21,414 nucleotides of DNA from a virus. The stretch covers positions 1-21,414 of the IMG/VR virus record IMGVR_UViG_3300042868_009554; one strand, given 5' to 3'. The position numbers and the translations under genes are program-made. How positions within the stretch are numbered: the first letter of the stretch is position 1; the number at the start of each line of letters is the position of its first letter. Shown here piece by piece: positions 4,401-21,414 of the stretch. The notes under the pieces are model-generated. The model was given only the letters and a program-made list of their open reading frames with translations, was not told the DNA's origin and made no database searches.

Positions 4401-5648
4401 TCGAAGCAGTCCTTGAATCTCGTCTGCGACAACTGTGAACGCAGACTGAGTTTCGTTCTTGAACGTCGGCATCAAACGAGTTAGCGTCTGTATCCCGACT
4501 CCAGCCGTTTCGAAGAATGGACGCCGCAGCAGATCAGTCAACTGCGCCCACTCGTTGTACAACTTGCCCGACTCGGCAATCAAGTCTTGTGTGTCTTTCG
4601 GCAGATTCTTTACAGTGGTGCGGTACTCTTCAAGTTTGTCGCGGGCCTCTTCTGAGTTCTTGCCCGTCTCCAGCACTTGTTCTTGATAGTCGGTCGCAGC
4701 CTTTGTAGCCGTGGACAACTCATTGAACAGCGGCTTGACGGCCGCTCCTATGCCAATAAGACTTAATAGGAACCCGCTTCCGGCGGCGGCTGCGAGGCCG
4801 AACGCTCCTACTGCCGCCGTGCCAACGGCTCCGACAAGCGCCGAGACGCCGCCAACGACGCCGCTCAAAACTGGCCCAAACACTGCCAGCGCTCCGAGCA
4901 ACTGACGAACGCTTAGAGAGAAGAATCCCAAGTGCAGCCGGACGTTAGTGAGTCCTTTAATCATGTTGGCAAGCCTCTCGTCGTGCTCGTTGTAGCGCTT
5001 GTTAACTCCTTCTACATCTCCGTTCAGTTCGGCAAGCCGGTCGCTCAGAGCGATCACTTCGACACGCATCCGGGCCAACTCACGGCGCTCCTGTTCGGTG
5101 TTCTGTGCCAGCAGAGACTTTTCGCGCTTTCCGATCTCAGCGTTTAGTTTTACGATGCGCTCTTCAAGTTTCGCAGTTTCAATCGCTTCTTTGCGCGTCG
5201 TTCTAATCTGATTCTCTTGCGCCTTGACCTGATCGTTTGTGGCACGCCGCGCTCGATCCGCTGCATCGCTTGCAGTTCGTTGCAGATACGTCCACTCGCT
5301 CATGTACGCGGCGTTGCGGTCAAGAGCCACGCTGAACTTCTCCATCGCCTCTTCGGCACCGCCCGCGCCTTCAACAAACACCTTTAAGTCTTCTGGCAGG
5401 CGTCGATACTCTTTAAGCGTTTTGTTAAGTTTTCCGCCCCCGGCCGTCATAGCCGACTTTAGAAGTTTCTGGTACTTGACCAGTTCAGACCGGGCCTTGC
5501 GGAGACTTTCTACATTTGTGTCAATCTGGAGATTGACAGTTTCATCGGGGATGCCTTCAAGAACAGCCTTAACCTCAGCCGCGCCAGCATAGACGCCGCT
5601 AGTGTCGATGTCAACCAGATATTCAAGAGTTCCGAGGTTTCTAGCCAT
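1482..5648 (-). CDS. Tail tape measure protein
   Basis: 1388 aa, by far the longest gene. Such proteins fill the tail tube lumen, set tail length and help DNA entry. What is visible: a charged coiled-coil region at about residues 120-225, a long Ala/Gly hydrophobic stretch at 247-305, a second hydrophobic and Ala/Thr-rich stretch at about 585-735, further helical segments, and a C-terminus ending KQLEWEVGVA. At the usual ~1.5 angstrom per residue this predicts a tail of roughly 200 nm. The ATG at 5648 overlaps the end of the preceding small gene by 8 nt, with GGGG about 10 nt upstream. No peptidase or transglycosylase motif was noticed. The call is firm from size, composition and position after the chaperone-type genes. 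Confidence 0.95.
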   Translation of the reverse strand: MARNLGTLEYLVDIDTSGVYAGAAEVKAVLEGIPDETVNLQIDTNVESLRKARSELVKYQKLLKSAMTAGGGKLNKTLKEYRRLPEDLKVFVEGAGGAEEAMEKFSVALDRNAAYMSEWTYLQRTASDAADRARRATNDQVKAQENQIRTTRKEAIETAKLEERIVKLNAEIGKREKSLLAQNTEQERRELARMRVEVIALSDRLAELNGDVEGVNKRYNEHDERLANMIKGLTNVRLHLGFFSLSVRQLLGALAVFGPVLSGVVGGVSALVGAVGTAAVGAFGLAAAAGSGFLLSLIGIGAAVKPLFNELSTATKAATDYQEQVLETGKNSEEARDKLEEYRTTVKNLPKDTQDLIAESGKLYNEWAQLTDLLRRPFFETAGVGIQTLTRLMPTFKNETQSAFTVVADEIQGLLRGLGSLEGQQTIETLMRNNTRALPGFIQGMGSITTAIARLAVASSSHLPRISENFRQWSATLAGATGRTNFQNQVNGMMEQLTGVGRVLTATGRLLVTFFSAGASAGQQFTTQLAATINRWNAWMKSTAGQQELSEFFKDSITELKLLYNAISPIIKIFARWTEATRPISQAVLRLVAGVASAIEVITRLGIVVDAAVAATLGLFAKRVVAGVAGLVTAYRALRTAITGVTVAQTAQAATAAAATRATTASAAAQTVAAASTTRFGAATVAARGATAGFLGAGSRLVGFLGGPWGFAITAAVTGLVLYGDKLLGLISNTRTYAEQARSIRQRQIAANSAIRNAGPAIDKARTSYKELKDSVKAYNAAVEGGRRPEQSLGEISRQSRQVATNQKDAAQSLIDYISNLQSARGEARNLAIQSLSGLRQVQGFGKGGGAAGFGGSAAQVQELTNLLNSGAVPSVRKMNKALSGLKVPAELRNAIDTWLVTGFERLGAKVNVVRQDLGKVALPPRLTQQVGQLFAELPKQARANLTAAFSKMEPEAVRQTTRLLQAMASSGKTKQAIKLAARVDAKTIDSDLQAIRRKAKQLNISPKKVKLEALPGDFNKTLKDVTGRPGKKDVKLGISNLEQIKGRLEDWVDDAPTKTIRITPELTTSTVTVNVKKIPMNAEGGYIGTAKQEGSRTSGGRFTGPTFLVGEENRPEYVIATNPAYRKNNVKYWMQAGAALGIPGFANGGMTAGASGKPNRPVPLGKKNIPALEKLYRQTQFKIQRQTDLAAVARREEDLRLGKGLTFREANVKRPLERVVNAQVYLKKLLGHLKSEYADSIKAVGKSDLSKEKKKQKLKELRQKRGQYVAEHKNMDIAIRNAQVDLDEFLNEVQTGGTGLGASPAVTEALNLLSGHYGLGMQFGSNMFRASAGIGSTTGVIAPGGIEQRSAGAASRGKVVNVTNNYQEPPADPHTWSKQLEWEVGVA

Positions 5649-5826
5649 TGAGCGTCATCCCCTGCTGCCACGCAGCCGTGCCAGAGCCTCGCATATCCTT
5701 GTGCGATTGACGGAACTCTTTGCGTTCCTGTTCTTTTTCTTGCTTACGACGTTCTTTGGCCACCTTAGCAACGATAGCCTCTCGCACGACGTAATCTACG
5801 ACATCATCATCTGAAAACGGCGGCAT
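5641..5826 (-). CDS. Small tail assembly chaperone-type protein (second chaperone gene)
   Basis: 61 aa from the ATG at 5826 (MPPFSDDDVVDYVVREAIVAKVAK, then a run rich in Lys, Glu, Arg and Gln). It lies between the first chaperone-like gene and the tape measure, where siphophages place the second chaperone reading frame. Here the gene has its own start: AGGGGG sits 5-6 nt before the ATG, 16 nt after the previous stop. The open frame also extends upstream to a GTG at 5883 inside the previous gene, so a frameshifted fusion is conceivable. The offset is +1 (or -2), however, not the usual -1, and I saw no obvious slippery site. Confidence 0.7.
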   Translation of the reverse strand: MPPFSDDDVVDYVVREAIVAKVAKERRKQEKEQERKEFRQSHKDMRGSGTAAWQQGMTLNG

Positions 5827-5842
5827 CGTTCCCCCTGATTGC

Positions 5843-6298
5843 TCATAGGTTGAGTAAATCCGAAGTGGTAAGGTCGAGGCCACGAACGTTGCGAAAGGAG
5901 TCTTGTGTTTCCAGACCTCCCAACTGGTGTCCGATAGCGTCGAGATCGGTTACGCGGCTTGCAAATCCAATCAGCAATTCCAGATCGAGGGCAGGCAGGT
6001 CTTCTACGTCGTCCTCAGTAATCTCTGGATTGACGAGCATCTGCGGGATGATGAACTTTGTGAACTCCCAAGTCTGCTCCAGAACTTCTTTGTCAATTTT
6101 CTCGGCCGATCCCTGCTCTACGGCAATGTCGATAAGGTGATTCGGAACTTGACCAGACTTGATAAGGCGCGGCAGCGACGGGATCGTGATGTCAACAATA
6201 GTGCCGGACGGCAGTGTGACTCCTGTGTGGACGTTCGCCTGCTTCCAAGCGTCCTTGCTTGCGGCCTTAGTCTTCGTTGTGGGGGATGATTCTGTCAA
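5843..6298 (-). CDS. Tail assembly chaperone (gpG-like)
   Basis: 151 aa. The conserved-looking core is THVTLPSG-type: TGVTLPSGTIVDITIPSLPRLIKSGQVPNHLIDIA, followed by acidic helices (EITEDDVEDLPALDLELLIGFA). This matches the general style of actinophage tail assembly chaperones, which guide polymerisation of the tape measure and tube. The start is a TTG at 6298, chosen because a perfect AAAGGAGG lies 9 nt upstream. A longer frame from TTG 6325 would have that Shine-Dalgarno inside the gene. It overlaps the preceding 63-aa gene by 32 nt. Confidence 0.8.
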   Translation of the reverse strand: MTESSPTTKTKAASKDAWKQANVHTGVTLPSGTIVDITIPSLPRLIKSGQVPNHLIDIAVEQGSAEKIDKEVLEQTWEFTKFIIPQMLVNPEITEDDVEDLPALDLELLIGFASRVTDLDAIGHQLGGLETQDSFRNVRGLDLTTSDLLNL

Positions 6299-6458
6299 TT
6301 TGTGTGTCCTCCTTTGGACTGTCAATGTTTTCGTCTGCTGTCTCGTCGAGTGCTTCCAACAAGCGTGCAGACAACTTTCTTAGTACATTAGCGCGCCGCG
6401 TGACGCGGTTCGCTTCCTCCCGAACCAGCACTGCCAGTTCGTGAATTTCTTTGTCCAT
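6267..6458 (-). CDS. Small helical protein between tail tube and chaperone
   Basis: 63 aa, starting MDKEIHELAVLVREEANRVTRRA. It looks almost wholly alpha-helical and charged, with a heptad-like pattern in the first 40 residues and an acidic tail (DETADENIDSPKEDTQIDRIIPHNED). The ATG at 6458 is preceded by GGAG at 7 nt and lies 12 nt after the major tail gene. It is not a recognised family. Position and coupling to the chaperone gene suggest an accessory role in tail assembly, which is inference only. Confidence 0.75.
   Translation of the reverse strand: MDKEIHELAVLVREEANRVTRRANVLRKLSARLLEALDETADENIDSPKEDTQIDRIIPHNED
6308..6315 (-). promoter_or_regulatory. Shine-Dalgarno that fixes a TTG start
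   Basis: AAAGGAGG on the minus strand, 9 nt before the TTG at 6298. It decides the start of the tail assembly chaperone gene and lies inside the coding sequence of the overlapping 63-aa gene, so the two are probably translationally coupled. Confidence 0.8.
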
Positions 6459-6470
6459 GCGCTACTCCGA

Positions 6471-7430
6471 TCAGGTGGCTTCTTGATTCTTCACTTCGCA
6501 CGAGATGACGCCGGAGGCGTTGCGCTGTGCGACGGCGCGGACATCCACAGTAATAGGATCGCCGCCCGGATCAGGCTCGACCGGGAACTCCTGATAGGCG
6601 ATCTGCGGGAAGTCAAACTCGATAGCGTTGTTGGCGCCCTTCGAGAAGACAAAGTTAGCGTCCGTGGTAGCCAGCGTGCTCGACTGAGCGGTGCCGCTGG
6701 TGCTGCCGTAGTTGAAGCGGTTGTACTCGTCCAGCGTCTCAAAGATCAGCGTGAAGCCGAGCGAAACCTCGCGCAGCCCCTCAACGACATCGTAAGGCTT
6801 GGCATCGTCGGTCTGCTGCATCGACACGTTGTTGGAGATGGTGCACTCGAACGAGCCAACAAGTGCCGTGCTGCCGCTCGCCAAAGTTACAGCGGCCTCG
6901 TTGAAGTTGTACACGGCGTCGGAAGCGGTAGTCGCAATCGAAGCGGGCTGAGAGGTCAGACGAACGGCGTTGCGGCCCATAATGTTGAGCGACGCGGTGA
7001 GCGGCTGCCCGGCCTCGGCCGAAATCGTGACCTCGGAAACCTTGCAGTCCTCGAAGCGCTCATAAAGCGTGTCGCCAATCTCACGATAGAAGGTGTAGTA
7101 AGGAAGCGCACTGGCCGGAGTAATAGTGTGCGTGTAGTTGGTCGTGCCCGTGCTTGAGATGGTGCCCAGTACGGACTCAAGAATGTGATGAATGTTCGAG
7201 TCACGCACATACACTTCTGGCGTGCCCTCAACCGAGAAGTTCTGGACGTAAGCAACGCCCTGATCACGGCTGGAATCAGTCTCAGACAGGTTCTCTACCG
7301 AACGGACGGGGCCGATGGAGCCGCCGGAGAACGGAAGAACATCCCAAGTGGATGCAGTAGAGTTGGCAGTGCCCTTGCCGGACTGCTTGCCAATACCAAA
7401 AAGTGCGTCATTTCCGCGAAGTCCACCCAT
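6471..7430 (-). CDS. Major tail tube protein
   Basis: 319 aa, beginning MGGLRGNDALFGIGKQSGKGT, a typical opening for siphovirus tail tube subunits, followed by alternating beta strands (VSEVTISAEAGQPLTASLNIMG; SFECTISNNVSMQQTDDAKPYDVVEGLREVSLGFTLIFETLDEYNRF). Tube proteins stack as hexameric rings around the tape measure. The ATG directly abuts the stop of the 82-aa gene, and AAGGTAGG 7 nt upstream can serve as ribosome binding site. The C-terminal part (DPGGDPITVDVRAVAQRNASGVISCEVKNQEAT) contains a strand-rich end. Length and order support the call. Confidence 0.9.
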   Translation of the reverse strand: MGGLRGNDALFGIGKQSGKGTANSTASTWDVLPFSGGSIGPVRSVENLSETDSSRDQGVAYVQNFSVEGTPEVYVRDSNIHHILESVLGTISSTGTTNYTHTITPASALPYYTFYREIGDTLYERFEDCKVSEVTISAEAGQPLTASLNIMGRNAVRLTSQPASIATTASDAVYNFNEAAVTLASGSTALVGSFECTISNNVSMQQTDDAKPYDVVEGLREVSLGFTLIFETLDEYNRFNYGSTSGTAQSSTLATTDANFVFSKGANNAIEFDFPQIAYQEFPVEPDPGGDPITVDVRAVAQRNASGVISCEVKNQEAT

Positions 7431-7679
7431 TTACGAACCTACCTTAACAGCCGGAGAGGCAGACAGGGCTGAAGCGGTCTGCTGAGAAACGGTCTTGCCA
7501 GCAGCAGAAATCTCCACACGGCCGTCAGAATCGGCGTCTGCCGGGTCCACGCCTACAACAGAGACGAAAACCGAGCCATCAGCAGCAAAATCAGGGTTGA
7601 GAGAGACCTTTACGCCTTCCTTCGACGCGGCCTTCTTGGGCTTATCTTCGGCCTTTACAGCCTTTGCTTCATCGGACAT
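7431..7679 (-). CDS. Small hypothetical protein upstream of tail tube gene
   Basis: 82 aa. A Lys/Ala/Glu-rich N-terminus (MSDEAKAVKAEDKPKKAASKEG) is followed by a short beta-like part with an Asp-rich turn (VVGVDPADADSDGRVEISAAGK). AAGGGG lies just before the ATG, at only 2 nt spacing, which is short. The stop abuts the major tail gene start, so the genes are co-translated. I do not recognise a family. Small genes are common in this slot between tail terminator and tail tube. Confidence 0.75.
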   Translation of the reverse strand: MSDEAKAVKAEDKPKKAASKEGVKVSLNPDFAADGSVFVSVVGVDPADADSDGRVEISAAGKTVSQQTASALSASPAVKVGS

Positions 7680-7710
7680 TACCCCTTAGAATATCGTGCG
7701 GTGTGCCAGT

Positions 7711-8154
7711 CTAGCCGGGGAAAGAAGCCAGATTATTGCCGTGGCCCTCGATTTGAGCCTCAAGACGGGACTTGTTTCCAGTCGGATCGTCCGGGTAGTC
7801 AATCCGAGTAAGCCGCAGGAACCACATCTCGCCGGTGTTTCCGCTCGATTGCGTCTGAAAGGCGCTGCGCAGACGGTCGCCGTAGTCCTCGATCACGCCG
7901 GGATCAACTTGAATGGTCTCGTCCGGCTCGGCATCGTAAGCCATATAAATCTGAAGCACGACAGGCACGACCAACTCGATTACGCGCCCCGGACGCTCGT
8001 ATTCGGCCTCTGGATAGACCGCCGCGACCGTCTCGCCTTCTTTTCCGGCAGCACGGGTCAATTTGTCGTTCGTCACGATTAGACCTTCGGCTGAGAACTC
8101 GTCCTCAACGATGTCGATTACGCGCTGCCGAACTGCTGTAGCCGCTGATGCCAT
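7711..8154 (-). CDS. Tail terminator / tail completion protein
   Basis: 147 aa. An N-terminal helix (ATAVRQRVIDIVEDEFSAEG) is followed by beta strands including RVIELVVPVVLQIYMAYDAEPDETIQVDPGVIEDYGDRLRSAF and a C-terminal LRLTRIDYPDDPTGNKSRLEAQIEGHGNN. This matches the usual layout of the small tail terminator, which caps the tail tube before head joining. The ATG overlaps the preceding stop (TGATG), and AGGAG lies 12 nt upstream. Order (connector, gp10-like, terminator, tube) agrees. Confidence 0.8.
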   Translation of the reverse strand: MASAATAVRQRVIDIVEDEFSAEGLIVTNDKLTRAAGKEGETVAAVYPEAEYERPGRVIELVVPVVLQIYMAYDAEPDETIQVDPGVIEDYGDRLRSAFQTQSSGNTGEMWFLRLTRIDYPDDPTGNKSRLEAQIEGHGNNLASFPG

Positions 8155-8747
8155 CAGACTCTCAACTCCTGAAAGATAACCTCGCCAATTTCTTCTTCGT
8201 GTTCTCTAATAGCGCCTTGCACGTAGCCGTTGTACGCTCCTATATGGCCGGGATGCGTCACATAGCCCTTTGGCGAGTAGCCGCCGGACCACTGATAACG
8301 CGCAGGGTAGCCGTATCCGCCCTCTCTTGGAACGCGAGGAATAGGATAATTTCTTTTGCCTTTGCCTTCGTTCAACAGGACGGCGTGCGGAGCGCCAAAG
8401 CCGACACTTATCGCGGCGCTGGTATCGCCCGCTCCAATGACTCGTACCGACCGAAGCATTGAGCCGGTCCTAGTGTTGAACTCGCTCTGCATGGCGGAGC
8501 GTATTGCGGCTGCGCCCATTTCTGCGCCAACTACAGCCGCTTTTTGCGTCTTGCCCTCCAGTTCTGTGAGAAAGCGCTTAGTGCCTTCTTCTTGGCGCTG
8601 GCGCATCGGGATATAAATATCAACTTCGCCTTGCTCCAGATCAAAAGCACGGGAAAGGGCACGAGCCACAGCCTCGTTTCTACGTCGCGTCAGCCAACTC
8701 TTCTTGCCCGCCGCTACTCGAACTGGGTCTTTCTTGCGGGCAGCCAT
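8154..8747 (-). CDS. HK97 gp10-like neck protein
   Basis: 197 aa. A basic helical N-terminus is followed by MGAAAIRSAMQSEFNTRTGSMLRSVRV, a beta region (ISVGFGAPHAVLLNEGKGKRNYPIPRVPR), a glycine/tyrosine-rich loop and a helical end. The HAVLLNEG element resembles the histidine-containing YAxxVExGT motif of HK97 gp10-type head-tail joining proteins. The ATG overlaps the connector stop (TAATG), indicating translational coupling. It presumably helps attach the tail to the filled head. Confidence 0.8.
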   Translation of the reverse strand: MAARKKDPVRVAAGKKSWLTRRRNEAVARALSRAFDLEQGEVDIYIPMRQRQEEGTKRFLTELEGKTQKAAVVGAEMGAAAIRSAMQSEFNTRTGSMLRSVRVIGAGDTSAAISVGFGAPHAVLLNEGKGKRNYPIPRVPREGGYGYPARYQWSGGYSPKGYVTHPGHIGAYNGYVQGAIREHEEEIGEVIFQELRV

Positions 8748-9802: not shown

Positions 9803-10366
9803 TCAGCCAGCCTTGTAACCGGCGGTGACGGTGGCGATGGTGACGCCCGGCGTGGTGCCGCCAGTGAGGGAGGAAGTCGCAGTCATTGCGGCTACGTTGG
9901 TAGCGGCAAGTTCCCCGATGAAGGTGACGGTGTAAGGACCGCCAGCCGAGCCGGTGACTGAGACATTTGCTCCGTCGATGCTGTCGATGGCGCGCAGTGC
10001 GCTCTGGACAGTCGAAGCAGCAGCATTGTGGTTGATGGCGGCAGTCGTGTCGCCGTCGAAGGTGAGGGTGAAGGTTCCGCCAGTGGGCGAGCCGGTGATG
10101 GTGACAGACTGAACCTCGTCGGTATCGACCGTCTGATCGGGGTTAATCGCCGTGGTGGGATCGTCCGCATCGTGAACAGCCAGCGGATCGAGGCCCGTAG
10201 CGTCAGCAGTGGGGTACACGTCGCCGTCAGGAATCTGCACAGCGTCAGCGGCGGTCGGGTCAGTTACGACAGTGCTCAGGTGCGCTGCTACAACCTTGCC
10301 GGTTTCCGCATCAACAACAACTTCCTTTGTGATCGGCTTATCTGTGAGTGAGCGTGTGTTTCCCAT
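9803..10366 (-). CDS. Beta-domain structural protein, candidate head decoration
   Basis: 187 aa. Residues 1-80 are a loose, Asp/Thr-rich segment (VVDAETGKVVAAHLS; DVYPTADATGLDPLAVHDADDP). Residues 84-183 form one beta domain with EVQSVTITGSPTGGTFTLTF and VTGSAGGPYTVTFIGEL, the same domain as inserted in the connector. I recognise this domain as recurring in phage structural proteins. Its place directly after the major capsid gene is a usual slot for a decoration or cement protein, so that is the best guess. The ATG is preceded by AAGGTAGG and by TAGGAT 6 nt upstream; the latter could make a leaderless transcript. Confidence 0.75.
   Translation of the reverse strand: MGNTRSLTDKPITKEVVVDAETGKVVAAHLSTVVTDPTAADAVQIPDGDVYPTADATGLDPLAVHDADDPTTAINPDQTVDTDEVQSVTITGSPTGGTFTLTFDGDTTAAINHNAAASTVQSALRAIDSIDGANVSVTGSAGGPYTVTFIGELAATNVAAMTATSSLTGGTTPGVTIATVTAGYKAG
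9818..10117 (-). repeat. Beta-domain copy in putative decoration protein
   Basis: Encodes residues 84-183. Partner of the copy at 9245-9556. The similarity is clear at protein level over about 100 residues with few length changes, so the two copies probably share an origin. Confidence 0.75.
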
Positions 10367-16322: not shown

Positions 16323-16376
16323 GCGGTTTTTATTACACAGGGGGTCTATATAGACCCCCAGTGTGTAATAAACCGC
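16323..16376. repeat. 54-bp near-perfect palindrome between divergent operons
   Basis: The centre, 16340-16359, is a perfect 20-bp palindrome: GGGGGTCTAT followed by its complement. Arms extend outward as GCGGTTT-ATTACACA on the left and TGTGTAATAAACCGC on the right, interrupted only by two extra T's on the left and a 2-nt AG insertion on the right. It sits about 40 bp upstream of the leftward -10 box and about 105 bp upstream of the rightward one. It could be an operator for a dimeric or tetrameric regulator, a transcription block between the operons, or a DNA cruciform signal. Confidence 0.9.
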
Positions 16377-16381
16377 AAATC

Positions 16382-18074: not shown

Positions 18075-18159
18075 GGGACTGGTGTCCCGGTCGGGTTCGA
18101 TTCCCGGCGGTCTCTCTCCCCATTAGGGGGCACTGAAAACAGATGAAGGGAGAAACACA
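18075..18159 (+). repeat. Linker 0: divergent first copy with double hairpin
   Basis: The first, most divergent copy of the array linker. A hairpin GGGAC-TGGT-GTCCC (18075-18088) is followed by a T-arm, stem TCGGG / CCCGG around TTCGATT (18091-18107). From CCCCATTAGGGGG onward the sequence is the same as in later linkers, ending GGGAGAAACACA before the ATG. The hairpin plus T-arm together look like the variable arm and T-arm of a class II tRNA, but no acceptor or anticodon partner is found upstream. Confidence 0.85.
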
Positions 18160-18399
18160 ATGATGACGCGGAAGAATTACTACGCCCTAGCCGATGCCAT
18201 TGGCGCCGGAACCGCCCTAGACGGGGCGGCCCGTGACGCCGTGGTGTTGGAGGTGTCGAAGGTGTTCGCGGCGGATAATCCCCGGTTTGACCGGGCAAAG
18301 TTCGCGGACGCCGTCGAAGAGTTCGCGGCGTATTTCTGCAAGTTGGAAGGCGTCGAACTGTCACCGCTCCCCCCGGAAGATTTCCGGCGGCGCAGGTAG
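18160..18399 (+). CDS. Array cassette 1: small phage protein with NPRFDR motif
   Basis: 79 aa: MMTRKNYYALADAIGAG, a helical middle, then FAADNPRFDRAKFADAVEEFAAYFCKLEG. The pattern of an N-terminal Tyr/Ala-rich helix followed by NPRFDRxxF is one I recognise from small proteins of unknown function in many actinophages. GGGAG supplied by the linker stands 8 nt before the ATG; a second ATG follows at once (ATGATG), so either can start. It lies first in the array. Confidence 0.85.
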   Translation: MMTRKNYYALADAIGAGTALDGAARDAVVLEVSKVFAADNPRFDRAKFADAVEEFAAYFCKLEGVELSPLPPEDFRRRR

Positions 18400-18482
18400 C
18401 AGACCGACCCGCCGGGGGTTCGATTCCCCCGGCAGGTCTTCCCCATTAGGGGGCACTGAAAACAGATGAAGGGAGAAAACAA
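18400..18482 (+). repeat. Array linker 1 with tRNA T-arm mimic
   Basis: 83 nt from stop to start. T-arm hairpin at 18411-18433: stem GCCGGGGG / CCCCCGGC, loop TTCGATT. Second hairpin CCCC-ATTA-GGGG at 18441-18452. A mini-ORF MKGENK starts at 18466 and its TGA overlaps the ATG of cassette 2. Variant GGGGGCAC; ends AAAACAA before the ATG. The left edge (CAGACCGACCC) differs from the other copies. Confidence 0.95.
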
Positions 18483-18710
18483 ATGACTGAGACGATTCAG
18501 AAATGGGCGTCAGAGTTGGAAATTGGTGACCTGTTGGTAGTTGATGCCAACGGCGCCAACGGGGCCGCCGTAGTTGAGGAGGTCATAGACCTCATGCCCG
18601 CGATGGTCCGGGGCGGTCTAGGGGTGGCGGTCTTTACAGAGACCGACACCGACCCGGCCCCCCTGCCGATGACTTTCTGCGATTCGGTCACGGTGGCGTT
18701 GGACGCGTAA
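18483..18710 (+). CDS. Array cassette 2: small beta-rich protein
   Basis: 75 aa: MTETIQKWASELEIGDLLVV, then DANGANGAAVVEEVIDLMPA and VTVALDA at the end. The ELEIGD-LVV-G-AVVEEV pattern suggests a small beta-barrel like those of many short phage accessory proteins; no specific family is recognised. The linker Shine-Dalgarno GGGAG is 7 nt before the ATG. It is unrelated in sequence to its neighbours despite identical flanks. Confidence 0.85.
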   Translation: MTETIQKWASELEIGDLLVVDANGANGAAVVEEVIDLMPAMVRGGLGVAVFTETDTDPAPLPMTFCDSVTVALDA

Positions 18711-18789
18711 CCGGCCCGCCGGGGGTTCGATTCCCCCGGCAGGTCTTCCCCATTAGGGGGCACTGAAAACAGATGAAGGGAGAAAACAG
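18711..18789 (+). repeat. Array linker 2 with tRNA T-arm mimic
   Basis: 79 nt. Begins CCGGCCC right after the TAA; T-arm hairpin at 18718-18740. Variant GGGGGCAC; ends AAAACAG before the ATG. The mini-ORF MKGENR stops within ATGA. Confidence 0.95.
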
Positions 18790-18963
18790 ATGACCGAAAC
18801 GGACAAGTGGATTGTGGTGATGTCGGAAACCGGGCGCCCCCCGGTGGCGGCAAATCCTAACGGCTACACCCGCGAAACCGCCGAAAAAATCGCGGGGCGT
18901 CCGTATGTGATGCCCCGCCGGGCGGTTCCGGCCCGCGTCACCGGCGGCACGCCCGCCAACTGA
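18790..18963 (+). CDS. Array cassette 3: 57-aa protein
   Basis: MTETDKWIVVMSETGRPPVA, then ANPNGYTRETAEKIAGRPYV and MPRRAVPARVTGGTPAN. A short beta strand, a helix and a basic, Pro-rich end. It is the shortest cassette and is supported by the same linker Shine-Dalgarno and spacing as its neighbours. Family not recognised; the WIVV / RETAEKIA arrangement resembles many small phage proteins with a single strand-helix unit. The TGA stop begins the TGACC found at several cassette ends. Confidence 0.8.
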   Translation: MTETDKWIVVMSETGRPPVAANPNGYTRETAEKIAGRPYVMPRRAVPARVTGGTPAN

Positions 18964-19042
18964 CCGGCCCGCCGGGGGTTCGATTCCCCCGGCAGGTCTT
19001 CCCCATTAGGGGACACTGAAAACAGATGAAGGGAGAAAACAG
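18964..19042 (+). repeat. Array linker 3 with tRNA T-arm mimic
   Basis: 79 nt. T-arm hairpin at 18971-18993. Variant GGGGACAC; ends AAAACAG before the ATG. Otherwise identical to linker 2. Confidence 0.95.
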
Positions 19043-19303
19043 ATGAACTATCCATTGGCGCAAATGACCATGCCCTATGAAACCGCACGGCAGGCAATTC
19101 GGGAATTGCGCAGATTCGCGGCGGCGGCGTTCGATGACGGGCGCCACGCGGATGGCGTCAGAATCGCGTCGGTCGCTTACAGGTTGGAAAAGTCCCGCGA
19201 ATATGGCGTTCCCCTGCGAACACACTATTCGCAACTTGCCGAACTGGACGCGGCAGACGCCCGTCAGTTTGCCACGGACGGCAAGACCGGGTTCGATTGG
19301 TAA
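19043..19303 (+). CDS. Array cassette 4: helical protein with T-loop-like 3' end
   Basis: 86 aa, mostly helical: YETARQAIRELRRFAAAAF, DGVRIASVAYRLEKSREYG and HYSQLAELDAADARQFATDG, ending KTGFDW. Family not recognised. The last codons contain GGGTTCGATTGG (19288-19299), which repeats the T-loop core of the linkers and may be a relic of linker sequence absorbed into the gene. Start by linker GGGAG at 7 nt. Confidence 0.85.
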   Translation: MNYPLAQMTMPYETARQAIRELRRFAAAAFDDGRHADGVRIASVAYRLEKSREYGVPLRTHYSQLAELDAADARQFATDGKTGFDW

Positions 19304-19386
19304 GAGACTGGCCCGCCGGGGGTTCGATTCCCCCGGCAGGTCTTCCCCATTAGGGGGCACTGAAAACAGATGAAGGGAGAAACACA
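19304..19386 (+). repeat. Array linker 4 with tRNA T-arm mimic
   Basis: 83 nt. Left edge GAGACTGGCCC; T-arm hairpin at 19315-19337. Variant GGGGGCAC; ends AAACACA before the ATG. Confidence 0.95.
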
Positions 19387-19662
19387 ATGACATTGGAAGA
19401 GTTGCCGCGAACTATGACCGACCGACAGCGGGGCATACAGGTCAGAGAGACCCGCCCGAACTATGACCGCGATTCATACAATCGCGGATGGCGGTCTTCA
19501 TTGGATGCCACCGTTGGCCTGCCGTTGGAACTGGCAGATGCCCGTGGTGAATGTTCCGAATGGTATGACGGCTACACCGACGCCGCCACCGGGCGGCAGA
19601 AATGGCACATCCCGCTTTGCCTTCACCATCACAATGGTGAAGGCGGGTGTGGATACGCCTGA
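19387..19662 (+). CDS. Array cassette 5: WYDGY / HHNGEGGCG small phage protein
   Basis: 91 aa. SYNRGWRSS (30-38), DARGECSEWYDGYTDAATGR (51-70), then KWHIP and CLHHHNGEGGCG (78-89). I recognise this layout from small actinophage proteins of unknown function. The His/Cys-rich end (C78, H80-82, C88) could bind a metal ion, which is inference. Linker Shine-Dalgarno and ACACA-type start. The stop is the TGACC form. Confidence 0.85.
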   Translation: MTLEELPRTMTDRQRGIQVRETRPNYDRDSYNRGWRSSLDATVGLPLELADARGECSEWYDGYTDAATGRQKWHIPLCLHHHNGEGGCGYA

Positions 19663-19746
19663 CCTATCTGGCCCGCCGGGGGTTCGATTCCCCCGGCAGG
19701 TCTTCCCCATTAGGGGACACTGAAAACAGATGAAGGGAGAAACACA
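19663..19746 (+). repeat. Array linker 5 with tRNA T-arm mimic
   Basis: 84 nt. Left edge CCTATCTGGCCC. With the preceding TGA it gives GACCT, able to pair with AGGTC on the 3' side of the T-arm. Hairpin at 19675-19697. Variant GGGGACAC; ends AAACACA. Confidence 0.95.
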
Positions 19747-20157
19747 ATGACAGACGAAACACGGACCAAAGTTCGCGGCGCCGTTCAGCGGTTCGCGGAT
19801 GACATCATCGAATTGGTGATAGCAGACGCGGCCCCCGATCTAGGTGTCTCACCAACTAATCTGGTCGAAGACCTGAACTATGTGGTGCAGATTCTGGACG
19901 GGTTGGATGTTCCCACTGACATATCCGATTTCGATGTAGAGACGGATGTCGATGTGGATGTTCAGAGTTCGCACGCTAGTTATGACGGGTGCGGCGGCGT
20001 GGATGTGGAAATGTCGGTATCAGTGGATGCCAATATCACTGACCTAAACAGTTCCTGCGATGACCTATCCGAAATTGCCGACGAAATCGAAACGGCACGG
20101 AACGCCATTTCGGGGATTGTCGCAAGTCTGCCGGACCCGGAATACGGGACCGACTGA
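19747..20157 (+). CDS. Array cassette 6: acidic protein
   Basis: 136 aa, the longest of the array. A helical N-terminus (KVRGAVQRFADDIIELVIADAA), then an Asp/Val-alternating beta stretch (DFDVETDVDVDVQ, 61-73; GVDVEMSVSVDANITDL, 84-100), then a helical C-terminus (LSEIADEIETARNAISGIVA). Strongly acidic overall. No family recognised; an acidic, beta-centred small phage protein could be a protein-binding inhibitor or DNA mimic, which is speculation. Confidence 0.85.
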   Translation: MTDETRTKVRGAVQRFADDIIELVIADAAPDLGVSPTNLVEDLNYVVQILDGLDVPTDISDFDVETDVDVDVQSSHASYDGCGGVDVEMSVSVDANITDLNSSCDDLSEIADEIETARNAISGIVASLPDPEYGTD

Positions 20158-20241
20158 CCTATCTGGCCCGCCGGGGGTTCGATTCCCCCGGCAGGTCTTC
20201 CCCATTAGGGGACACTGAAAACAGATGAAGGGAGAAAACAG
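20158..20241 (+). repeat. Array linker 6 with tRNA T-arm mimic
   Basis: 84 nt. Left edge CCTATCTGGCCC as in linkers 5 and 8; hairpin at 20170-20192. Variant GGGGACAC; ends AAAACAG. Confidence 0.95.
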
Positions 20242-20622
20242 ATGACCCGAACTATCCAAGTAGAAATGGAACTGTCCGATGAACTACTGACCAACGCGAT
20301 TGTATGCGCGGTCGAAGGCGGAACAGGATACTGGGCAAAGGTCAGCGGATACGACTGGTCAGAGAATGGTCAGTTTGCGGTGGCCTATCTTCATGAGATG
20401 GATGCCTACACTGACGAAATCCCCGAACAGGGCCAACGGTTCGGTTTGGATGAAGCGGCAACTGGTATTACCCGGATAATGTCCGGGCAGGTGCCGGTGG
20501 CCGATTACATAGTCGGATACATCCGGCGGGCAATAACAGAAAGTGACCCCGGACATATCGATTGTGAAGCGGCCGATGTAATCGCGCAAGCGGCTATACT
20601 AGGCGAGTTGCGATACGGCTAA
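20242..20622 (+). CDS. Array cassette 7: conserved phage protein of unknown function
   Basis: 126 aa. MTRTIQVEMELSDELLTNAI starts a helical/beta N-terminus, followed by EGGTGYWAKVSGYDW, and the C-terminus reads CEAADVIAQAAILGELRYG. The ELSDE-L-NA-V-A-EGG-YW pattern with a final ADVI-Q-A-GE-YG is one I recognise from small proteins widespread in phages and metagenomes. No enzymatic motif. Linker Shine-Dalgarno at 7 nt. Confidence 0.87.
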   Translation: MTRTIQVEMELSDELLTNAIVCAVEGGTGYWAKVSGYDWSENGQFAVAYLHEMDAYTDEIPEQGQRFGLDEAATGITRIMSGQVPVADYIVGYIRRAITESDPGHIDCEAADVIAQAAILGELRYG

Positions 20623-20701
20623 CTGGCCCGCCGGGGGTTCGATTCCCCCGGCAGGTCTTCCCCATTAGGGGACACTGAAAACAGATGAAGGGAGAAAACA
20701 G
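20623..20701 (+). repeat. Array linker 7 with tRNA T-arm mimic
   Basis: 79 nt. Left edge CTGGCCC; hairpin at 20630-20652. Variant GGGGACAC; ends AAAACAG. The only linker whose next gene does not begin ATGA, so the mini-ORF reads on for several codons into cassette 8. Confidence 0.95.
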
Positions 20702-20989
20702 ATGCTCACCAGCACACAATGTAAGGTAGTGGCCTATATGTCAGAGGGCGGGTTTTATTGCCCGCCGTGCGCGGCAAAGGCGCATGGAATCGAAGACCCG
20801 CGAACACAAACGGGTTACCGGCTAACGGGTCGGGAAACTGACCTAACGCCGATCATCTCATATGAGATGGATTCCTATGAATCCGAAATCGCATATGAAT
20901 ATGAGATGAACGGTGAAAGTGAAACCGACGCGGCAGAAATGGCCCGGACTACTTGCGAAGAGTGTCACGGTGATATCACCGACTACTGA
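20702..20989 (+). CDS. Array cassette 8: zinc-finger-like small protein
   Basis: 95 aa. Two Cys-x2-Cys pairs, CPPC at 20-23 and CEEC at 85-88, flank an acidic, Tyr/Glu-rich middle (SYEMDSYESEIAYEYEMNGE). Paired Cys knuckles at both ends are typical of a zinc ribbon; metal binding is inferred. It starts MLTSTQCKVV and is the sole cassette starting ATGC rather than ATGA. Stop of the TGACC type. Confidence 0.85.
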   Translation: MLTSTQCKVVAYMSEGGFYCPPCAAKAHGIEDPRTQTGYRLTGRETDLTPIISYEMDSYESEIAYEYEMNGESETDAAEMARTTCEECHGDITDY

Positions 20990-21073
20990 CCTATCTGGCC
21001 CGCCGGGGGTTCGATTCCCCCGGCAGGTCTTCCCCATTAGGGGACACTGAAAACAGATGAAGGGAGAAAACAG
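20990..21073 (+). repeat. Array linker 8 with tRNA T-arm mimic
   Basis: 84 nt. Left edge CCTATCTGGCCC; hairpin at 21002-21024. Variant GGGGACAC; ends AAAACAG. Confidence 0.95.
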
Positions 21074-21370
21074 ATGAACTATTACATCAGCCGTTACAGC
21101 ATCACCCGCGAATATGGCGGTCCAGAGGAAGGCGGATGGTGGTGGGACCGTTCGGTGTTTGAGGAAGTTATTGCCACCTGCGACAGCGAAGACCGGGCGC
21201 AGTTTGTAGTCCAAACGCTGAACGCGGCGGAAAAGACCGACCAAGAAGAGCGGGCAGGTGGACACCGCCCCGCCGGGCGATTCTCAGTGAATGGCGGCGC
21301 GGACACCCGGTATTTCTGGGAAGATTCACCGCGTCAGATGGAAGACACCGAAACGCCTACATGGTGCTAA
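21074..21370 (+). CDS. Array cassette 9: REYGGPEEGGWW small phage protein
   Basis: 98 aa. MNYYISRYSITREYGGPEEG leads into GWWWDRSVFEEVIATC; the second half has FSVNGGADTRYFWEDSP. The YYI-R-SITREYGGPEEGGWWW opening followed by a FSxxGGxDTxxxxEDxP end is one I recognise from a widespread small phage protein of unknown function. No catalytic motif is apparent. Linker Shine-Dalgarno at 7 nt. Confidence 0.88.
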   Translation: MNYYISRYSITREYGGPEEGGWWWDRSVFEEVIATCDSEDRAQFVVQTLNAAEKTDQEERAGGHRPAGRFSVNGGADTRYFWEDSPRQMEDTETPTWC

Positions 21371-21414
21371 CCGGCCCGCCGGGGGTTCGATTCCCCCGGC
21401 AGGTCTTCCCCATT
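21371..21414 (+). repeat. Array linker 9, cut by window end
   Basis: Begins CCGGCCC after the TAA and includes the full T-arm hairpin at 21378-21400; the window ends in CCCCATT. It shows that the array continues to the right. Confidence 0.95.

Follow-up and report, generated by a model that had tools for sequence, protein, structure and literature searches.

What separates the small genes of a phage when every gap between them carries nearly the same sequence although the genes share no resemblance? This question is raised by the right side of the virus record IMGVR_UViG_3300042868_009554, of which we analyzed a stretch of 21,414 bases, in the following termed the window. The record comes from a tailed phage, in which the portal, protease, capsid, and tail genes run leftward and an array of small genes runs rightward on the right side, separated by repeated non-coding linkers. 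Each linker folds as the top half of a tRNA without an anticodon, that is, a minihelix of acceptor stem and T-arm of about 12-13 base pairs (bp) capped by a canonical T-loop. We propose, with a probability of roughly two in three, that the linkers are tRNA-like punctuation marks, at which the RNase P and RNase Z of the host cut the polycistron into single-gene mRNAs, each beginning with a protective hairpin.

From position 18075 to the end of the contig, ten linkers, all on the sense strand, alternate with nine small genes. In the list, linkers 2 to 9 each contain a helix, a hairpin, a Shine-Dalgarno sequence (SD), and a start codon, and lengths of gene products are given in amino acids (aa).

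18075..18159, + strand: linker 1, before the first array gene; variant T-stem TCGGG/CCCGG, upstream GGGAC-TGGT-GTCCC; R1 hit of 37.5 bits
18160..18399, + strand: array gene 1, 79 aa, no assigned function
18400..18482, + strand: linker 2; helix 18406-18438, hairpin 18440-18453
18483..18710, + strand: array gene 2, 75 aa, no assigned function
18711..18789, + strand: linker 3; helix 18713-18745
18790..18963, + strand: array gene 3, 57 aa, no assigned function
18964..19042, + strand: linker 4; helix 18966-18998
19043..19303, + strand: array gene 4, 86 aa, no assigned function
19304..19386, + strand: linker 5; helix 19310-19342
19387..19662, + strand: array gene 5, 91 aa, no assigned function
19663..19746, + strand: linker 6; helix 19670-19702
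19747..20157, + strand: array gene 6, 136 aa, no assigned function
20158..20241, + strand: linker 7; helix 20165-20197
20242..20622, + strand: array gene 7, 126 aa, phrog_2355 (function unknown), E 4.6e-18; homologs in the phages L151/L152 and Likavirus gp68
20623..20701, + strand: linker 8; helix 20625-20657
20702..20989, + strand: array gene 8, 95 aa, no assigned function
20990..21073, + strand: linker 9; helix 20997-21029
21074..21370, + strand: array gene 9, 98 aa, phrog_30656 / phrog_7302 (function unknown)
21371..21414, + strand: linker 10; helix 21373-21405, interrupted by the contig end; complete in the record L009, with more array genes behind

Linkers 2-9 are 79-84 nucleotides (nt) long and occupy the whole space from stop to start. 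About 75 nt are near-identical among them and the truncated linker 10, whereas the 5' half of linker 1 deviates (65% identity to the reference copy). The stop codon and the helix are separated by 2-7 nt, and all nine complete linkers place the ATG 44 nt from the helix end. The array is thus confirmed as the preliminary description had it, with ten sense linkers between nine dissimilar genes, except that the near-identical set had been numbered 1-8 and is in fact 2-9. Even with four further array genes from L009, the mutual similarity of the 13 cargo proteins amounts to one weak match of 29 aa. Among the nine window proteins, only those of genes 7 and 9 matched phage families, all of unknown function. 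No close relatives of the window phage were found in the annotated phage records searched, nor any prophage relatives of its portal among 84,980 genomes.

The repeated linkers fold alike. A 13-bp helix, GGCC(C)GCCGGGGG / CCCCCGGC(A)GGTC with one C-A mismatch, carries the 7-nt loop TTCGATT and is followed by one unpaired U, a 5-bp hairpin UCCCC-AUUA-GGGGA, an A-rich stretch, and the SD; the folded stretches reach -30 to -43 kcal/mol. The loop TTCGATT satisfies the rules of a canonical T-loop, and the helix length is that of a tRNA acceptor stem plus T-stem. The structural hallmark of a tRNA-like element processed by RNase P and RNase Z, a coaxial acceptor/T-arm helix of roughly 12 bp bearing a canonical T-loop, was found with 13 bp in the window (one mismatch) and in the record L010, and with 11 bp in the Likavirus phages described below. 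The T-arm noted previously is real, and its stem is longer than had been noted. The reading is strengthened by L010, the distal L009 linkers, and Likavirus, where the loop, TTCRANN, is kept while the stem pairs change together. We consider this assignment of the structure class well supported and very probably correct. The elements are not true tRNAs or tmRNAs, a reading that was rejected because ARAGORN found 0 tRNAs in the window and Rfam gave only sub-threshold T-arm or tRNA-Sec fragments. Moreover, no Rfam family covers the window-type, the Likavirus, or other tRNA-like elements of this kind.

A pattern scan of 2.9 million viral contigs (IMG/VR) found the window-type module in two records besides the window, L009 and L010. 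L009 is 99.8% identical to the window over 11 kb, and its array runs to the end there, comprising 13 genes and 14 T-arms, and both starts and ends with a T-arm. Two copies among its distal linkers have another stem, TCTAGGGGCAGGG/CCCTGCTCCTAGA, and the last T-arm (AGCGCCGTCGGG/CCCGGCGGCGCT) lies after the stop of the final gene with no hairpin or SD behind it. L010 is a different phage, having early genes in common with the window but not the array genes, except for gene 10, which is located outside the L010 array. Its nine linkers have the stem GGTCTGCACAGGG/CCCTGTGCAGACC with the same loop and hairpin as in the window. Across the nine distinct sequences of the window, L009, and L010, 96.3% of the pair cells are standard, and both sides have changed in 9 of 18 pairs. 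The covariation score of 0.412 exceeded that of shuffled partners (0.146) and of slid partners (at most 0.088). Other arrays with the same fold and compensatory changes, which the preliminary description had named as support for its proposal, therefore exist, as the differing stem of L010 illustrates. The opposite case it had envisaged, a linker keeping its sequence but losing the T-arm fold, was never seen: a scan of IMG/VR for the hairpin/SD module independent of the T-arm returned only L009 and L010, where every such module stands at a T-arm linker.

Does the fold extend beyond these phages? A wider search with a loosened pattern, followed by the requirement of a T-arm, an acceptor stem, a hairpin, and a start, led to the unrelated phages L135, L023, L157, L159 (acceptor GGTAG/CTACY, insert CTGGTG...), L099, L147 (four copies), L122, L126, L118, L047, and L074, and to two contigs that proved to be Likavirus phages of Streptomyces. 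A loose pattern mostly returned real phage tRNAs, and a stricter one took its place. Loci found by the pattern share it by construction, whereas the Likavirus covariation and the elements of the archaeal virus HRTV-27 are independent of it. Likavirus, several metagenomic phages, and HRTV-27 carry intergenic anticodon-less tRNA-like elements, most of them with a small D-arm-like insert, with a hairpin and a start codon within a few nt. In the regions fetched from Werner, Lika, Nanodon, Ozzie, OzzyJ, and Lorelei, 6-9 unannotated elements lie between early genes, each consisting of a 5-bp acceptor, an 11-nt insert, a 6-bp T-stem, the loop TTCGANN, ACU, a hairpin, GAGAGGA, and the start. All 336 of 336 pair cells are paired among 28 distinct Likavirus sequences, with both-side changes in 7 of 12 pairs and a covariation score of 0.479, whereas shuffled partners gave 0.104 and slid partners 0.065 at most. 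The insert contains a covarying D-arm-like closing pair (CG 17, GC 10, UA 1) around an (A/C/T)GGCA loop; in tRNA, a GG of the D-loop docks to the T-loop, and the Likavirus loop has such a GG. Whole-genome model matches are confined to the early region, with six in Werner and ten in Ozzie; an element occupies 6 of the 10 gaps longer than 80 nt in the Werner region, so not every gap has one. Haloarchaeal tailed viruses have a T-arm, a TTCCCC-type hairpin, and an ATG at gene starts, in HRTV-27 (L171) at 1884, 2924, 3679, and 5598 and in L139 at 1144 and 2895. The Likavirus and window types thus agree in the T-arm, acceptor stem, adjacent hairpin, SD, start, and location in early gene gaps, but the former has the 11-nt D-arm-like insert and is diverse within one phage, whereas the latter lacks the insert and is near-identical.

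Chance can be excluded for the window linkers because shuffled window sequence yielded 0.00 hits with a strict element finder, and the real hits were all on the coding strand. Across loci, the same finder gave 0.00-0.05 hits per shuffled sequence as opposed to 2-9 in the real loci, again all on the coding strand. No strict elements outside tRNAs were found in TM4, phiC31, or R4, the last of which is related to Likavirus at the subfamily level and has its early genes closely packed. Furthermore, the hairpin lies next to the helix. We counted 72 elements selected without demanding a nearby hairpin; 7 have none within the next 40 nt, and in 63 of the 65 having one, the strongest begins 0-5 nt past the helix.

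Several other structures were observed in these phages. A second repeated spacer, CTTGACA-N7-TANNNT with GACAGCAAC-rich sequence and an SD behind it, occurs in several copies in L009 (1-2400, - strand), L010 (4600-9250, - strand), and L151, and lies directly upstream of two distal T-arm linkers of L009; it is perhaps a phage promoter. In the Werner (L160) gaps 6248-6355 and 6630-6714, a different repeated structure (GGAGCATCGSCC...GGTGTGCTGC, two hairpins) takes the place of the tRNA-like element. True tRNA-Gly genes of marine-type phages (L012, L027, L064, L096, and others) often have a TTCCCC-loop-GGGG hairpin immediately behind them, in some cases with a coding gene next. The window also contains a long palindrome (TATTACACAGGGGGTCTATATAGACCCCCAGTGTGTAATA) at about 16330-16380, located between the two diverging arms; L010 matches the 134 nt around it at 82% identity, and L151/L152 have a similar palindrome near 9902-9955.

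How could such an element act? We propose the enzymes that mature tRNA ends, given that each gene junction has one canonical T-loop on a 12-bp helix, oriented with the coding strand and immediately followed by a hairpin. A hairpin at the 5' end is a known stabilizer of bacterial mRNA. Host RNase P would cut 5' of the helix and host RNase Z 3' of it, and the polycistron would fall into single-gene messages with the UCCCC/GGGGA hairpin at or beside each new 5' end, where it may slow 5'-end-dependent decay, with a strong SD behind. Every gene could then be expressed equally and uncoupled from its neighbors, and new small genes might be added as cassettes that each bring a linker along. The fuller form with the small D-arm-like insert would perform the same task in Likavirus and other phages. 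RNase P measures from the elbow along the acceptor/T-arm helix (PMC4919913), and RNase Z grips the same elbow and cuts the 3' side when CCA is not encoded (PMC4810234). Host enzymes would serve, as no RNase Z-type domain of phage origin was found in the ten records searched, and the presence of both RNase P and RNase Z in bacteria and archaea matches the spread of the elements to HRTV-27. The closing element of L009, bare of hairpin and SD, fits a role of making a 3' end only.

Several observations weigh against cleavage at these elements. The 3' RCCA, which aids bacterial RNase P and is not required by RNase Z, is absent: behind the helix, the window linkers have UUCCCC and the Likavirus elements ACU. 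Counted from the bottom, pair five of the window helix is a C-A mismatch, and helix lengths span 11-13 bp, with 11 bp rather than 12 in Likavirus. In the window, the stop codon is so close to the helix (2-7 nt) that a ribosome terminating there would unfold it, and cleavage on the 5' side would leave the upstream message hardly any 3' untranslated region. As the linkers are near-identical within one phage, their conservation within an array could reflect homogenization instead of selection. Finally, the sister phages L151 and L152 (36.7 and 39.9 kb), which share 83% DNA identity with the window over the structural genes, gave no match to a covariance model of the linker and so manage without it.

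In these sisters, array genes 7 and 10 have homologs, which lie in an early region unlike that of the window. Because the homologs lack T-arm linkers, the linkers are not tied to particular genes but represent a gene-independent expression module. The preliminary description had regarded related phages with the same genes and no linkers as counting against it; this case does occur for genes 7 and 10, although it does not make the fold unreal. In the same sisters, the coding sequence of the early region at about 4700-8250 is saturated with CTCGAG/AGCTCGAG words.

Could the linkers be explained without cleavage? GC-rich hairpins are common as terminators between genes, and actinobacterial terminators often have no U-tract, so the linkers might combine a 3'-end hairpin and intrinsic terminator with a ribosome-binding site. 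Each would then terminate or stabilize the transcript of the gene before it, the next gene being reached by read-through or from its own start. We consider this quite unlikely. No linker was among the matches of a scan for a GC hairpin with a U-tract, the tail is UUCCCC without a U-run, and no sigma-70-type promoter lies between the array genes. The array of L010 closes with an ordinary-looking GC hairpin and T-tract, which looks quite different from the linkers, and a terminator needs neither an invariant TTCRANN loop, nor a covarying D-arm-like pair, nor an additional element ahead of the first gene. Promoters within the linkers were likewise rejected: the sigma-70 scan found none there, and CTATCT before the helix occurs in only 3 of 10 window linkers, the upstream base string being variable. 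The 13-bp arms around a 7-bp spacer also have the core layout of tyrosine recombinase sites, tRNA T-arms are classic integrase targets, and the cargo genes resemble shuffled cassettes, as if the linkers were attachment sites for site-specific recombination in an integron-like array. However, no Phage_integrase (PF00589) was found in ten contigs (the window phage, L010, the sisters, and others), with the window phage genome incomplete and serine recombinases not searched. The conservation pattern is, moreover, the reverse of the expected one, since it is the arms, which a recombinase would read, that differ from phage to phage, and the spacer that stays constant. The strict orientation with built-in SD and start and the adjacent hairpin would be left unexplained, and we consider such sites highly improbable.

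A repeat spread by duplication or capture, whose copies are kept alike by homologous recombination that enables gene shuffling, would have a fold that is only the relic of a captured tRNA end. The near-identity within a phage and the divergence between the window and L010 follow the pattern of concerted evolution, and the cargo family phrog_2355 is found with and without a linker. A relic would decay, yet the stems covary and the T-loop stays fixed, and in Likavirus the fold persists in every element although the copies in a given phage lack near-identity. As the whole explanation this appears unlikely, but it may be true in addition to punctuation. Homology-based upkeep of the similarity of copies inside one phage is likely, leaving the covariation between phages and the Likavirus fold unexplained. 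The T-loop is also the recognition element of other tRNA-binding enzymes (PMC4810234), and the elements might recruit TruB/TrmA, EF-Tu, or the CCA-adding enzyme, or act as a decoy, without being cut. We regard such mimicry as very improbable, as it does not account for one element per gap, for the adjacent hairpin and SD, or for the closing element after the last gene.

The proposed punctuation has counterparts among known systems, none of which includes the viral linkers. Like them, mascRNA/menRNA (RF01684) is tRNA-like without a true anticodon arm, and it is processed by RNase P and RNase Z, but it is mammalian, and only one copy is present, terminating a long non-coding RNA. In the Rfam search, the highest-scoring match in the region was that of linker 1, the only linker listed for RF01684; its 25.9 bits fall short of the 42.5-bit gathering score. 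In animal mitochondria, structured tRNA elements between genes are cut by RNase P and RNase Z, freeing single mRNAs (reviewed in PMC4394434, PMC11144196). The marks there are working tRNAs, whereas those of the prokaryotic viruses are anticodon-less, repeated, and non-decoding, with a hairpin and SD behind them. Escherichia coli RNase P acts on non-tRNA transcripts, including intercistronic tRNA-like structures, the phage M3 and C4 RNAs, and mRNAs (PMC11143913); these are isolated, irregular structures, in contrast to a repeated element dedicated to array gaps. The start-associated sequences (SAS/ESAS) of cluster K mycobacteriophages, previously suggested as the nearest parallel, are repeated elements that immediately precede many small genes and in some cases contain 17-bp inverted repeats (PMC3203893). 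The parallel stands for the position but not for the motif: their consensus GGGATAGGAGCCC has no T-loop, it gave 0 matches within two mismatches upstream of starts in the window, so that SAS membership was rejected, and TM4 has no strict T-arm element. By the tests made, the tRNA-like linkers belong to no described family. We found no description of tRNA-like punctuation in phages in the open-licence literature, which is not proof of absence.

The layout is present but unannotated in cultured Streptomyces phages and in an archaeal virus, and is thus wider than the preliminary description knew. On balance, we lean toward the view that tailed viruses of bacteria and archaea evolved, probably several times, anticodon-less tRNA-like cut elements with cap-like 5' hairpins, by which early polycistrons are converted to single-gene mRNAs through the tRNA-maturation enzymes of the host; such viral tRNA punctuation would constitute a new class of RNA. 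It would account for many unannotated intergenic gaps in sequenced phages and would be directly testable in laboratory Streptomyces phages. The compact natural elements, which within about 75 nt would provide a cut site, a 5' hairpin, and a ribosome site, could be used for multi-gene constructs. If this is true, phages run a bacterial operon as mitochondria do, using tRNA-like marks and host tRNA enzymes to obtain single-gene messages with defined ends, and would have a way to express, and to exchange, their many small accessory genes individually.

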